Shown: positions 136 to 4,284 of the stretch, one piece after another
How the letters are laid out: every line of letters starts with the position of its first letter
Numbering within the stretch: the stretch's first letter is position 1
Made by a program: the position numbers and the translations under genes
The notes under the pieces: generated by a model
The model's input: only the letters and a program-made list of their open reading frames with translations
Told to the model about the DNA's origin: nothing
Databases searched by the model: none
Source: Ralstonia soli
GTDB taxonomy: Bacteria; Pseudomonadota; Gammaproteobacteria; Burkholderiales; Burkholderiaceae
Reading direction: 5' to 3'
DNA length: 64,000 bases
Assembly (NCBI RefSeq): GCF_023955655.1
Contig: NZ_JAMXHT010000006.1
Location: 186,001-250,000 of the forward strand

Positions 136-1137
136 TCAGGCCTCGCTGCCCAGAAAATCCGCGACTGTCGGGTAGCGCAGCGCCACACGCAGCTCGCGCG
201 TCAGGCGTGCATTGCGTAACCGGCGCGATTCGCTCATGAACGACAGCAGCGTCGGCTCGATCTGCGTAACAGCTTCGGCCCGCGAGATGCGCGGCGGTCG
301 CTGCAGGCCCCGCGCATCGGCCACGGCATCAAAGTAGTCGCCCATGCGCAGCTCCGATGCATCACTGGCATGCACGATGCGCTGCGACCGCCCCCGGAAC
401 AGCGCGGCAATCAGCGCGCGCGCCAGGTCATCGGCGTGGATGTGGTTGGTGTAGACGTCGTCTTCCGAGCGCAAGGCGGGGGTGCCGCGCTGCAGTCGGG
501 CGACGGGCAGGCGATCAGCCGCGTAAATGCCGGGAATGCGCAGGATCGACGTGCGCCAGCCGCCGCCCGCACCGAACCAGCGCACGCGGCGTTCCGCAGC
601 CACGCGGCGCCGCGCGCGCGCCGTCGTTGGCTTCACCGGGCGGGATTCGGCAACCCAGGCACCCCCCGCGTCGCCGTATACGCCGCTGGTGCTCGCATAC
701 ACGAACGCACGCGCTTGGAGGCGGGTTTTCAAGCGCCCTATCACACCACCAAGCCTGCGCGCCCGGTCGGGTAAAATGCGACGTTTTGTGGCTCGCGGTA
801 TCGGGGCAGGACGCGCCAGCGTGTGCAGCAATGCAGCGGTACGCGGGTCGTCGTTGCCGGCAGTCGGCGGCGGTGCCAGGTGCAGCACGCGCGGGCTTAA
901 ACCCCGCAGGCGGCGCAGCGACGCGGCATCGTCCAGATTGGCGACAATCGGCACGGCACCGGCTTCACGCAACGATGCACGGCCCGCCTCGCGCGAGGTG
1001 ACGGCAAAGACGCGAAAACGCGTGCGCAGCGTCGTCAGGCAGCGTTGGCCGACATCGCCGCAGCCGACGATCAGCACGCGCGGAAGGCCCAGGCGTGGCA
1101 TAGGTTTGGATGGCAGAGCACCTGTCTGGCTCACCAT
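136..1137 (-). CDS. NAD(P)-dependent epimerase/SDR-family protein (YeeZ-like)
   Basis: The protein has about 333 residues. It opens with a Rossmann fingerprint, VGCGDVGQR (G25, G27, G30 from the start chosen), and carries the extended-SDR segment YASTSGVYGD in the middle. This fits the YeeZ/Gal10-like NAD(P)-binding proteins, whose substrate is generally unknown. No start has a good ribosome site: ATG at 1137 was chosen, and 1101 (MPRLGLPRV) is also possible. An Arg-rich stretch (RATKRRILPDRARRLGG) just before the YASTSG motif looks like an insertion relative to typical relatives, from memory of the family. The gene is divergent from the reductase at 1207 with only 69 bp between them. Confidence 0.7.
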   Translation of the reverse strand: MVSQTGALPSKPMPRLGLPRVLIVGCGDVGQRCLTTLRTRFRVFAVTSREAGRASLREAGAVPIVANLDDAASLRRLRGLSPRVLHLAPPPTAGNDDPRTAALLHTLARPAPIPRATKRRILPDRARRLGGVIGRLKTRLQARAFVYASTSGVYGDAGGAWVAESRPVKPTTARARRRVAAERRVRWFGAGGGWRTSILRIPGIYAADRLPVARLQRGTPALRSEDDVYTNHIHADDLARALIAALFRGRSQRIVHASDASELRMGDYFDAVADARGLQRPPRISRAEAVTQIEPTLLSFMSESRRLRNARLTRELRVALRYPTVADFLGSEA

Positions 1138-1206: not shown

Positions 1207-2256
1207 ATGGCTTACCAGATCAACGTGCTGCCCAGCGGCCGCCAGTTCCAGGCCGAAGACGGCGAGACCATCCTTGCAGCAGCGCTGCGCCAGGGCATCG
1301 GCCTGCCGTACGGCTGCAAGAACGGGGCATGCGGCTCGTGCAAGGGCCATGTGCGCGAGGGCTCCATCGTGCAGGGCAACCACTCGCCCAACGCGCTGAC
1401 GGCGCAGGAAGCCACCGAAGGCCGCGCGCTGTTCTGCTGCGCCACGCCCGCGACGGACGTCACCATTGAAGTGCGCGAAGTGCAAGGCGCCGGCGATGTG
1501 CCCATCAAGAAGATTCCGTGCCGCGTGGCCTCGCTGGAAAAGGCCGCGCCGGACGTCACCATCGTCAAGCTGCAACTGCCGGCCACCGAGCGCATGCAAT
1601 TCCTGGCCGGGCAGTACGTGGAATTCATCCTGCGCGACGGCAAGCGCCGCAGCTACTCGATCGCCAATCCGCCGCACGAAGAAGGCCCGATCGAGCTGCA
1701 CATCCGCCACATGCCGGGCGGCGCGTTCACCGATTACGTGTTCGGCGCCAAGGAAGGCGCACCGGCCATGAAGGAGCGCGACATCCTGCGCTTCGAAGGG
1801 CCGCTGGGCAGCTTCTTCCTGCGTGAAGAATCCGACAAGCCGATCATCCTGCTGGCCTCGGGCACGGGTTTCGCGCCCATCAAGGCCATCGTTGAGCATG
1901 CCCAGTTCATCAAGAGCACGCGCCCGATGACGCTGTACTGGGGCGGCCGTCGCCCGCAAGACCTGTACATGCACGCCAAGGCTGAAGAATGGGCGCGCAC
2001 GATCCCGGGCTTCACCTACGTGCCGGTCGTCTCTAACGCCCTGCCCGAAGACGCCTGGACCGGCCGCACCGGCTTCGTCCACCAGGCGGTGATGGCCGAT
2101 CACCCCGATCTGTCGAACCACGAGGTCTACGCCTGCGGCGCGCCGGTGGTGATCAACTCGGCGCGCACGGACTTCGCCGCCCAGTGCAAGATGCACCCGG
2201 ATGCGTTCTTCGCTGATTCGTTCACCTCGGAGGCTGACCTGCACCCGGCTGGCTAA
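1207..2256 (+). CDS. Ferredoxin-type flavin reductase (annotated in relatives as CDP-6-deoxy-delta-3,4-glucoseen reductase)
   Basis: The 349-residue protein has an N-terminal plant-type 2Fe-2S domain, with C37, C42 and C45 in GCKNGACGSCK and the fourth ligand at C77 or C78. An FAD-binding barrel (RRSYSIANPPHE) and an NAD(P)H domain (LLASGTGFAPIKA) follow. Electrons should pass from NAD(P)H through FAD to the iron-sulphur cluster and then to a partner oxygenase or dehydratase. The glucoseen-reductase name is inherited by homology. No ascarylose or other deoxysugar genes lie nearby, so the true partner is unknown. The start ATG at 1207 places the ferredoxin domain at the usual distance from the N-terminus. 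Confidence 0.8.
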   Translation: MAYQINVLPSGRQFQAEDGETILAAALRQGIGLPYGCKNGACGSCKGHVREGSIVQGNHSPNALTAQEATEGRALFCCATPATDVTIEVREVQGAGDVPIKKIPCRVASLEKAAPDVTIVKLQLPATERMQFLAGQYVEFILRDGKRRSYSIANPPHEEGPIELHIRHMPGGAFTDYVFGAKEGAPAMKERDILRFEGPLGSFFLREESDKPIILLASGTGFAPIKAIVEHAQFIKSTRPMTLYWGGRRPQDLYMHAKAEEWARTIPGFTYVPVVSNALPEDAWTGRTGFVHQAVMADHPDLSNHEVYACGAPVVINSARTDFAAQCKMHPDAFFADSFTSEADLHPAG

Positions 2257-2303: not shown

Positions 2304-2332
2304 TTGACTTGACTTGGCATCCGTCTTATTCT
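2304..2332 (+). promoter_or_regulatory. Sigma70-type promoter ahead of the argD leader
   Basis: TTGACT (2304-2309), a 17-base spacer and TATTCT (2327-2332) make a near-consensus promoter. Transcription should start at about 2338-2341, which is at the ATG of the leader ORF at 2341. It lies between the reductase stop and argD, so argD should have its own transcript. Confidence 0.6.
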
Positions 2333-2340
2333 TGCGCCTT

Positions 2341-2412
2341 ATGAACCACGCCCTGCACCTCCGACGCCGCCGTACGTTGCTCCCTCCGGGAAGCCACGCG
2401 GCTGTCTGCTGA
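2341..2412 (+). CDS. Putative arginine-rich leader peptide (23 aa), possibly leaderless
   Basis: An ATG at the predicted transcription start opens a 23-codon frame ending in TGA at 2410-2412. Codons 8-11 are four consecutive arginine codons (CGA CGC CGC CGT). A terminator-like hairpin follows 34 bases after the stop, and an arginine-biosynthesis aminotransferase follows that. This order matches amino-acid attenuators such as those of trp and his. There is no Shine-Dalgarno sequence, so translation would have to be leaderless. The coding claim is inference from position and codon content. Confidence 0.4.
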
Positions 2413-2445
2413 TTGCATATCGGGTTCACAGGATTCGACGATCAC

Positions 2446-2480
2446 AAGGCCACGGGCTCAACCCGTGGCCTTTGTCTTTT
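2446..2480 (+). terminator. Terminator hairpin in the argD leader (candidate attenuator)
   Basis: A perfect 11-bp stem (AAGGCCACGGG 2446-2456 with CCCGTGGCCTT 2462-2472) and a 5-base loop are followed by TGTCTTTTT. It lies 60 bases before the argD ATG and after the leader ORF. Competing pairings are visible but short: GCCACG at 2393-2398 and CGGGTT at 2421-2426 can each pair 6 bp with the 3' arm region. It could also be the plain terminator of the reductase gene 190 bases upstream. Confidence 0.6.
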
Positions 2481-2539
2481 TCCAACTCGCGCTTTTCCGC
2501 TTTTTCATCTTCCTGCCGCCTTTTTCTGGAGTGTTTGCC

Positions 2540-3727
2540 ATGGCGTTTGCTGACTACCCCGTCCAGTCCCTGATGTACATCACCAACCGGCCCGAGATCG
2601 TCTTCACCGAAGGCAAGGGCTCGTGGCTGACGGATCACAACGGCAAGCGATACCTCGACTTCGTGCAAGGCTGGGCCGTCAACTGCCTCGGCCATTCGAA
2701 CGACGGCATGATCGAGGCGCTCAACGCGCAGGCCAAGAAGCTCATCAACCCGAGCCCGGCCTTCTACAACGAGCCGATGGCCAAGCTGGCCAACCTGCTG
2801 ACCGCGCACAGCTGCTTCGACAAGGTGTTCTTCGCCAACAGCGGCGCCGAGGCCAACGAAGGCGCCATCAAGCTCGCCCGCAAGTGGGGCAAGAAGCATA
2901 AGAACGGCGCCTTCCAGATCATCACGTTCGACCACAGCTTCCACGGCCGTACGCTCGCCACCATGAGCGCGTCGGGCAAGGCCGGCTGGGACACGATCTT
3001 CGCCCCGCAGGTGCCGGGCTTCCCGAAGGCAATCCTGAACGACATTGCTTCGGTGGAAGCGCTCATCACCGACGACACCGTCGGCGTGATGCTGGAGCCG
3101 GTGCAGGGTGAAGGCGGCGTGCTGCCGGCCACGCCGGAGTTCATGCAACAGCTGCGCGCGCTGACCAAGAAGCACAAGATCCTGCTGATCGTCGATGAAG
3201 TGCAAGCCGGTTGCGGGCGTTGCGGCACCCTCTTCGCCTACCAGCTCTCGAACATCGAGCCGGACATCATGACGCTGGGCAAGGGTATCGGCGGCGGCGT
3301 GCCGCTGTCTGCCCTGCTGTGCACGGATGAAGTCGCCAGCTTCGAAGCCGGCGACCAGGGCGGCACGTACAACGGCAACCCGCTGATGACGGCGGTCGGC
3401 CTGTCGGTGATCGAGCAACTGCTGGCCCCGGGCTTCCTGGATGGCGTGCAAGAGCGCGGCGCCTACCTGCGCAAGCAGCTGCTGCAACTGTCGGAAGAAT
3501 TCGGCCTGGCGGGCGAACGCGGTGAAGGCCTGCTGCGCGCCCTGCTGCTTGGCAAGGACATCGGCGGCCAACTGGTCGAAGCCGCACGCGAGATGAACCC
3601 GACGGGCCTGCTGCTCAACGCGCCGCGCCCGAACATCCTGCGCTTCATGCCCGCGCTGAACGTGACGACCGAAGAGATCGACACGATGATCGGCATGCTG
3701 CGCACGCTGCTCAAGACGCACGCTTAA
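2540..3727 (+). CDS. argD: Acetylornithine/succinyl-ornithine-type aminotransferase, class III
   Basis: This is a 395-residue PLP-dependent aminotransferase of normal ArgD length. Diagnostic segments are [15 protein letters not shown] (phosphate-binding region), [20 protein letters not shown] (the Asp contacting the PLP ring) and [10 protein letters not shown] with the Schiff-base lysine. The expected reaction is transamination of N-acetylglutamate semialdehyde with glutamate to N-acetylornithine in arginine synthesis. The ATG at 2540 was chosen because GGAG lies 9 bases upstream; the frame stays open to 2465, but that part is the U-rich terminator tail. Other omega-aminotransferase activities cannot be excluded from sequence. 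The leader suggests control by charged arginine tRNA. Confidence 0.85.
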
Positions 3728-3807: not shown

Positions 3808-4284
3808 ATGGCCGCAACGCTTGTTGTTCCGGCCACGGGGATCGTTTTGTCTGACGATCCCGCGTGGCTCCCGCTGGACCAGATCTACGGTTTTCTCTCG
3901 CAGCAAACGCATTGGGCGTGCGGACTGCCCCGCGCGGTGTTCAACCGATCGATCGCCAACTCGCTGGCTTTTGCCGCCTACCAGCGCAACGACGATGGCA
4001 CGCATGGTGATCTGGTGGGCTTCGCGCGCGTCATCTCGGACTACGCGACGTTCGCCTATCTGTGTGATGTGTTCGTGCTGCCGGCGTGGCGCGGCAAAGG
4101 TGTGTCGCACGTGCTGATGCAGTTCATGCGCGAGCACCCCGAGCTTCAAGGCCTGCGCCGCACGGTGCTGGTCACGACGGAGGCCGGCTGGCTTTACCGC
4201 AAGCACGGCTTTACCGATGTGCCGGGCGACAGCGGCTTCATGCAGCTGCATCGGCCGAACGTCTATCAAGCCGCATCGACCTAG
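3808..4284 (+). CDS. GNAT-family N-acetyltransferase
   Basis: The 158-residue protein is a single GNAT domain. The acetyl-CoA pyrophosphate loop is visible in VFVLPAWRGKGVSHVLM, with the Arg/Gly-x-Gly pattern, followed by a C-terminal YRKHGFTDV segment typical of the fold. The acceptor substrate cannot be predicted. It follows argD by 80 bases in the same direction and ends in a strong terminator, so it may be read from the argD transcript. The ATG at 3808 begins the only frame with the full domain. Confidence 0.85.
   Translation: MAATLVVPATGIVLSDDPAWLPLDQIYGFLSQQTHWACGLPRAVFNRSIANSLAFAAYQRNDDGTHGDLVGFARVISDYATFAYLCDVFVLPAWRGKGVSHVLMQFMREHPELQGLRRTVLVTTEAGWLYRKHGFTDVPGDSGFMQLHRPNVYQAAST

Follow-up and report, generated by a model that had tools for sequence, protein, structure and literature searches.

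The trp, his, thr and leu attenuators of Escherichia coli are built alike: a short leader open reading frame (ORF) with adjacent codons for the end product is followed by an intrinsic terminator and then by a biosynthetic gene. A leader of the same build precedes argD in Ralstonia soli and its relatives, and a folding test with a stalled ribosome gives the same pattern for both, with a somewhat weaker signal for argD. The argD leader differs from the E. coli attenuators in its amino acid, which is arginine, in the lack of a Shine-Dalgarno sequence, in the position of its AUG at the predicted start site of transcription and in its occurrence in Burkholderiales.

Leaderless relatives of these systems have also been described. 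The trpL gene of Sinorhizobium meliloti (rnTrpL/peTrpL) is a leaderless ORF at the 5' end of its RNA that works by attenuation, and its terminated RNA has been catalogued as an sRNA (PMC7298713). Unlike the argD leader, it reads Trp and belongs to the alphaproteobacteria, and functions in trans have been shown for both its RNA and its peptide. In mycobacteria, leaderless poly-Cys ORFs carry adjacent control codons and mediate amino-acid-responsive attenuation (Canestrari et al., 2020, as cited in PMC9031893); these ORFs read cysteine, occur in Actinobacteria and, according to the same source, act on the translation of downstream genes. The initial annotation of the R. soli sequence called a leaderless leader unusual, which is correct with respect to the enterobacterial models, but the Sinorhizobium and mycobacterial leaders share this property. 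A closer match in the codons read is orf34 of Salmonella speF, an upstream ORF with two adjacent Arg codons at which ribosomes pause when arginine is low (PMC6386406). Its codons are AGG-CGG, it has a Shine-Dalgarno sequence, termination occurs through Rho together with RNase G, the target is an ornithine decarboxylase and no intrinsic terminator forms part of the system as that paper presents it. Identity with the speF leader (orf34/SpeFL) was considered and ruled out, as the argD leader has an intrinsic terminator and on inspection its peptide resembles orf34 in Arg only.

The locus lies near the start of the window, a stretch of 64,000 nucleotides of R. soli DNA (contig NZ_JAMXHT010000006.1, positions 186,001 to 250,000), and its parts are listed in Table 1. 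We read it as a ribosome-mediated transcription attenuator of the trp type for argD that senses charged tRNA-Arg through a leader translated in leaderless fashion, and give this reading a probability of roughly 0.82. Its parts, reading frame, codon choice, pairing of leader with terminator and conservation are all matters of sequence; the stall-dependent switch is predicted by folding. This kind of attenuator is already known, and the distinguishing features here would be arginine as the signal, the leaderless start and a choice of codons confined to one tRNA. No account of an arginine attenuator for argD or any other biosynthetic gene was found in the open-access literature, subscription papers being outside the search, and the literature searched likewise yielded no expression data on arginine.

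Table 1. Features of the argD leader region in window coordinates.
Feature	Position	Strand	Basis
Sigma-70-type promoter, TTGACT (2304-2309), 17-nt spacer, TATTCT (2327-2332)	2304..2332	+	Sequence scan, 9/12 matches
Leaderless leader ORF, 23 codons and TGA (2410-2412)	2341..2412	+	Orthologous frames in 11 families
Control codons CGA CGC CGC CGT (Arg 8-11)	2362..2373	+	Codon choice over 107 leaders
1:2 hairpin, Arg-codon strand 2363-2370 with 2398-2402 and 2404-2406 (8 bp), inner stem 2376-2397	2363..2406	+	Folding
Predicted antiterminator; its 5' strand contains the stop codon, its 3' strand most of the terminator left arm	2397..2454	+	Folding
Antiterminator pairs 2397-2398:2453-2454, 2400-2403:2448-2451, 2407-2408:2445-2446, 2410-2415:2439-2444, 2420-2427:2431-2438		+	Prediction
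Intrinsic terminator, 11-bp stem-loop (2446-2472) and T-rich tail	2446..2481	+	Scan; found in 107 analysed leaders
GGAG, probable Shine-Dalgarno of argD	2528..2531	+	Sequence
argD, acetylornithine transaminase of the PRK03715 type, putative regulated gene	2540..3727	+	NF002985

The promoter, the 23-codon frame with four consecutive Arg at codons 8-11 and the terminator hairpin followed by argD had been noted in the initial annotation, and each is present where it was placed. The leader ATG is the first ATG past the promoter, begins 8 nt after the -10 element and has no visible Shine-Dalgarno sequence. The terminator hairpin reads AAGGCCACGGG-CTCAA-CCCGTGGCCTT and is followed by the tail TGTCTTTTTC. 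ArgD is assigned by NCBIfam profile NF002985, with 786 bits against a cut-off of 568. Upstream, a gene for a 2Fe-2S/FAD/NAD oxidoreductase (window 1207-2253) ends 86 nt before the leader ATG, and a gene for an epimerase-like protein is oriented divergently (window 166-1104, minus strand). Folded with its terminator, the RNA from 2340 to 2482 reaches -55.7 kcal/mol (z -3.3), better than shuffled sequences. An 8-kb stretch that was scanned holds one promoter-like site, compared with 1.1 expected from shuffles, and four terminator-like sites, compared with 5.7; with both counts at shuffle level, the window by itself proves little, and it is conservation across relatives that lifts the layout above chance.

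In the proposed mechanism, transcription would start at the leader AUG or within a base or two of it, so that the nascent RNA could be translated leaderless at once. When arginine is plentiful, the ribosome would pass the Arg codons, reach the UGA at 2410-2412 and cover the 5' strand of the antiterminator; with the antiterminator blocked, the terminator hairpin would form and transcription would end as an RNA of ~140 nt. When arginine is short, the ribosome would stall on CGA-CGC-CGC-CGU and cover the strand that is otherwise paired with region 2. The freed segment 2397-2427 could then fold with 2431-2454 and take up the left arm of the terminator, allowing RNA polymerase to read into argD.

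The initial annotation had also inferred a ribosome-mediated attenuator, a class that the present results support with a leaderless, Arg-rich leader, but it had drawn a different antiterminator in which GCCACG at 2393-2398, near the end of the leader frame, pairs with the right arm of the terminator. This pairing is rejected, as its duplex energies do not rise above those of shuffles in Ralstonia (p 0.19-0.87) or over 26 genera (Fisher p 0.125). Duplex energies for pairing of the left arm with RNA downstream of a stalled ribosome beat shuffles over the 26 genera (Fisher p 0.0015) and do not do so within Ralstonia (p 0.19-0.44).

For a further test of the switch, nascent RNA that ends with the left arm was folded in three states: carrying a ribosome stalled at the second Arg codon, carrying a ribosome at the stop codon, or ribosome-free. 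The fraction of the left arm held by upstream RNA is 0.67 under stalling, 0.36 with the ribosome at the stop codon and 0.37 in naked RNA (means of genus medians), and the window's own values are 0.66 stalled and 0.36 at the stop. Stalling exceeds the stop position in 22 of 26 genera, with the reverse in one (genus g3), and exceeds naked RNA in 19 of 26, with the reverse in none. For 40 leaders, each compared with 60 dinucleotide shuffles, Stouffer z values over the 26 genera are 5.8 for the held fraction, 5.8 for stall minus stop and 8.4 for stall minus naked, and over 11 families 3.2, 3.7 and 4.5; genera and families are related and are not independent samples, so these combined z values, like the combined p values, overstate independence. 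The E. coli thr, leu, trp and his leaders score z 0.7-2.5, 2.0-3.7 and 1.6-4.0 for these three measures in the same test. Ralstonia itself gives weak shuffle z values (0.5-0.6, 1.4-1.5 and -0.1 to 0.6), and families f11, f39 and f21, represented by one genus each, have z near zero or negative and no switch signal.

When the ribosome is shifted codon by codon, capture of the left arm peaks over a stretch that opens with the Arg run and extends about six codons past it. The Arg codons give higher capture than earlier positions in 20 of 24 genera (p 1e-5) and higher capture than later positions in all 24. Along the window's leader it is 0.63 at codons 2-3, then 0.52, 0.66, 0.74 and 0.71 through the Arg run, and 0.36 at the stop.

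In RNA free of ribosomes, the predicted partner of the antiterminator's 5' strand is the run of Arg codons (2363-2370 with 2398-2406), and the resulting 1:2 hairpin competes with the antiterminator. The segment 2361-2408 folds at -19.4 kcal/mol (z -2.04; 6 of 200 shuffles), and the hairpin 2395-2456 alone at -19.8 kcal/mol (z -2.04; 8 of 200 shuffles); the longer 2377-2456 reaches only z -0.73 (44 of 200 shuffles). Among 14 Ralstonia sequences of the same length, 13 keep all 28 pairs of the window's antiterminator, local hairpin included, and one keeps 27, which says little as these sequences hardly vary. Drawn on 47 aligned leaders, the antiterminator is 84% paired compared with 27-36% in slid controls, and covariation in the same 47 leaders does not exceed shuffles. 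The homologous 1:2 hairpin has 91.8% of cells paired in the Burkholderia-side alignment and 16 double-change cells where 7.2 are expected, 14 of the 16 coming from one pair; two of five measures for this hairpin are not above shuffles. Consensus folding of the sequence alignments with RNAalifold gives little in the variable middle. At equilibrium the full-length RNA still favours the terminator under stalling in 62 of 72 distinct leaders (0.95 in the window), and for this reason the switch would have to be kinetic. When the whole leader is folded, UGAACC at the start codon (2341-2347) pairs with GGUUCA (2423-2428), and an untranslated leader RNA may in this way hide its own AUG.

The identity of the control codons points to what would be sensed. 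The Arg runs of 107 leaders contain 386 codons, of which 189 are CGC, 110 CGA, 86 CGT and one CGG, with no AGA or AGG. CGA thus makes up 28% of run codons, against 3.1% of the 1766 Arg codons in the argD genes, and it is the first codon of the run in 103 of the 107 leaders. CGG, AGG and AGA together account for 1 of 386 run codons, compared with 214 of 1766 (12.1%) in the argD genes and 48 of 244 among the other Arg codons of the leaders. The tRNA-Arg anticodons in the window's own genome are ACG (two copies), CCG, CCT and TCT, 9 of the 47 tRNA matches being unread. CGA is read poorly by the tRNA that serves CGU, CGC and CGA, and Arg pairs that contain CGA cause high read-through at the Salmonella his attenuator (PMC4046918). 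The run is drawn from the codons of tRNA-Arg(ICG), and it opens with the one that this tRNA reads worst. The near-invariant first CGA and the avoidance of CGG, AGA and AGG yield a testable claim, namely that the switch responds to how well tRNA-Arg(ICG) is charged, as felt at the weakest codon of this one tRNA.

SpeFL is an Arg-rich leader peptide that serves as an arrest sensor for ornithine, an example of Arg-rich leader peptides sensing metabolites in other systems. The nascent argD leader peptide could likewise be an arrest sensor that binds arginine or a pathway metabolite and does not report tRNA charging. The response of Salmonella orf34 to arginine (PMC6386406) would suit such a sensor, as would the RRRR-S/T-x-L sequence common to many leaders of family f1. 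This explanation is very unlikely, because outside the Arg cluster the peptide varies from family to family and its C-terminus from genus to genus (16 to 39 residues, the stop falling anywhere from codon 16 to codon 39), some leaders have only two adjacent Arg, and a peptide sensor gives no reason to expect a codon bias towards one tRNA.

Just as improbable is a signal other than arginine acting through the same anatomy, with a general slow-down of translation or a low supply of ribosomes felt at the slow CGA codon. CGA is indeed intrinsically slow (PMC4046918) and leaderless translation is reported to be stress-dependent (PMC9031893). Runs of three or four Arg ahead of an Arg-biosynthetic target argue for arginine instead, and in the leaders that were read other slow codons or Pro-Pro pairs never take the place of the run.

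Several features bear on the translation of the leader and on its leaderless start. The -10 element ends 6-9 nt before the leader ATG in 107 of 107 leaders. Counted from the promoter-defined ATG, the CGACGY core lies 18, 21, 24, 27, 39 or 72 nt downstream, a whole number of codons in 98 of 99 testable rows; this test is not fully blind, given that rows were chosen as leader-bearing. The one row out of frame is an f5 leader whose core match lies outside its Arg cluster; nine rows are untestable, six having no promoter by rule and three no core. Measured from the A of the ATG to the last base of the terminator stem, 21 Burkholderia leaders span 142-150 nt, and a review gives 147 nt for the transcript RIT34 of B. 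cenocepacia J2315, which fits a transcription start at the AUG, J2315 being compared by length alone. Both J2315 and Cupriavidus metallidurans are known to make leaderless transcripts (PMC4603805; PMC7563307), and the main texts of these two papers make no mention of argD.

RIT34 is also catalogued under other names: Bc_KC_sr7, RIT34 and nc5U30 are names for one RNA from chromosome 1 of J2315 (2,967,641-2,967,787, 147 nt) that is conserved in B. pseudomallei, is expressed in biofilm dRNA-seq, goes down during Caenorhabditis elegans infection and goes up with organic peroxide (PMC10987360). Judging from the prefix, the nc5U names belong to a 'short 5'UTR' class, and that class is said to arise by processing or attenuation (PMC5688073). 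The corresponding Rfam family RF02884 (BcKCsr7, Burkholderia sRNA 7) aligns end to end with window positions 2326-2475 at 31.4 bits (E 1e-4); this score is below the gathering cut-off of 59 bits, so the window is not filed as a member, and it is the same locus by position and layout. Among 200 genomes of the family, RF02884 matches 127 at E<=0.01 and 81 over the cut-off, in 11 of 25 genera, compared with 1 of 14 control genomes, where the match is below the cut-off. In the g12 loci analysed, RF02884 lies before argD with the same succession of promoter, AUG, RRRR and terminator; Rfam differs in annotating an sRNA gene and not a leader. Four secondary weak matches away from argD (G013:C80, G188:C4, G221:C1 and G035:C8; L184-L187), in which no argD is present, may be chance or paralogous elements.

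An independent trans-acting sRNA with an incidental open frame, as the name BcKCsr7 implies, would account for the Rfam entry and for the listing of RIT34/nc5U30/Bc_KC_sr7 as an expressed short transcript (PMC10987360). It would also account for the YYCGACGYCGCCGYNCG core and the segment after it, which are conserved as nucleotides in f1 even when the stop codon has moved ahead of them. The segment following the Arg run is similar across f1 whether it falls inside or outside the frame, and this conservation behind a moving stop implies a constraint at the RNA level as well. The frame is nevertheless kept through changes in leader length, the RNA always stands ahead of argD in the analysed loci, and outside f1 the layout, the Arg codons and the terminator are kept and the RNA sequence is not. 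A stand-alone sRNA is accordingly a shade less probable than either of the two preceding alternatives.

The attenuator reading draws further weight from its breadth. According to the initial annotation it would fall if close relatives lacked the Arg run or the hairpin, and both are retained: the whole arrangement is found in 16 of 16 Ralstonia genomes, the window's own included, and the layout stands ahead of argD in 107 analysed loci from 26 genera and 11 families of Burkholderiales (f1, f3, f5, f8, f11, f15, f20, f21, f24, f35 and f39). All 107 leaders have at least two adjacent Arg, or RAR; exceptions to the longer run are four or more loci of one genus with two consecutive Arg (RRSFR; L066, L067 and L069 among them), and three loci of g3 carry RRSFR or RRSVR. 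In an order-wide sample, 399 genomes were screened for ArgD of the NF002985 type and 63 were positive, 32 of which have a leaderless Arg-rich ORF and a terminator ahead of argD. The 31 without a leader comprise all of f4, all of f30, the small-genome genus g13 and most of f21, along with one genome each in f8, f11 and f19 and two in f39.

Loci were first filed by eye as having or lacking a leader and afterwards checked by a uniform rule (terminator, leaderless RR-containing ORF and -10). Of 109 loci taken as positive the rule recovers 106, the misses being one decayed, one masked and one f5 locus. It picks out no leader in 33 negatively filed loci with this type of ArgD, and 32 of them lack a terminator as well; nor does it pick out any in 30 loci of the other ArgD type, 12 of which have a terminator-like site. 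Four f1 loci (L068, L074, L075 and L076) were dropped as the argD match is absent, and L060 as a duplicate of L018; L052, which has lost its ATG, and L065, masked at the ATG, stand outside the 107, as does L175 (f5, no tblastn match), which was read by eye as leader-bearing and forms part of the 32 of 63. In a tree built from 44 ArgD proteins, the presence of the leader requires six changes compared with 12.6 for shuffled labels, and leaders occur on early and late branches alike. An early origin with losses fits this tree, and several independent gains are possible too.

A chance ORF between the argD promoter and the terminator of the upstream gene, with nothing regulatory about it, is highly improbable: promoter- and terminator-like sites in the window do occur at chance number and Arg runs are common in short frames of this G+C-rich DNA, but conservation, frame, codon choice and co-occurrence all count against it, and the terminator lies downstream of the sole promoter-like site found.

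The arginine attenuator would operate where a familiar regulator is missing. A profile search did not find ArgR (PF01316) in the window's own genome and found it in 9 of 14 control genomes; a survey describes ArgR as a conserved protein of the gammaproteobacteria that the other proteobacterial classes lack (PMC5343134). In Pseudomonas, carA is under arginine control and has a leader peptide with possible pyrimidine attenuation (PMC4997734). If the attenuator reading is right, it names a regulator of arginine synthesis in bacteria without ArgR, adds arginine, in a leaderless form, to the amino acids under ribosome-mediated attenuation, and provides a function both for a family that Rfam lists as an sRNA and for a B. 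cenocepacia transcript whose role is unknown. Many Burkholderiales would then confine production of an enzyme of arginine synthesis to times of arginine shortage.

A broader and speculative proposal combines these observations. The leaderless arginine attenuator would be old in Burkholderiales, repeatedly lost, and a replacement for the missing ArgR; as argD would always be transcribed, the ~140-nt leader RNA (BcKCsr7) and the Arg-rich peptide would also act in trans in the manner of rnTrpL/peTrpL, which would explain the Arg core held at the nucleotide level in f1. Taken as a whole this is unlikely, if less so than any of the alternatives to attenuation discussed above.

Some loci depart from the common design. 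The f5 leaders (L175-L183) have Arg codons spaced by Ala and Gly (RRxRAAARARxGRG) and a GGCCGUGGCGCG segment that matches the left arm of the terminator; from their sequences they appear to be a variant design of the same attenuator. In L052 (genome G190, family f1, genus g10) the ATG is lost and the frame has drifted, and the -10, an Arg-like core and the terminator remain, features of an apparently decaying leader in a fragmented 4.2-Mb genome. Genus g11 contains two leader types, MNCxQTFIRRRR (L053-L054) and MNLIxIASIRRRR (L055-L057, L087 and L088), and the ArgD proteins of L053 and L055 group apart on the tree; gene exchange or a mixed genus are possible reasons for the split. A scan of the window's own genome for paralogous leaders (ATGAAC-N9-30-CGACGYCG) gives 12 matches compared with 10 for the reversed control, and among these 12 only the window's is a leader by its letters. 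Downstream, a gene for a GNAT acetyltransferase (PF13508, E 2e-12; window 3808-4284) begins 80 bp past argD on the same strand and is probably co-transcribed with it; a terminator-like GCCCCGCAACTGCGGGGC is located after this gene.
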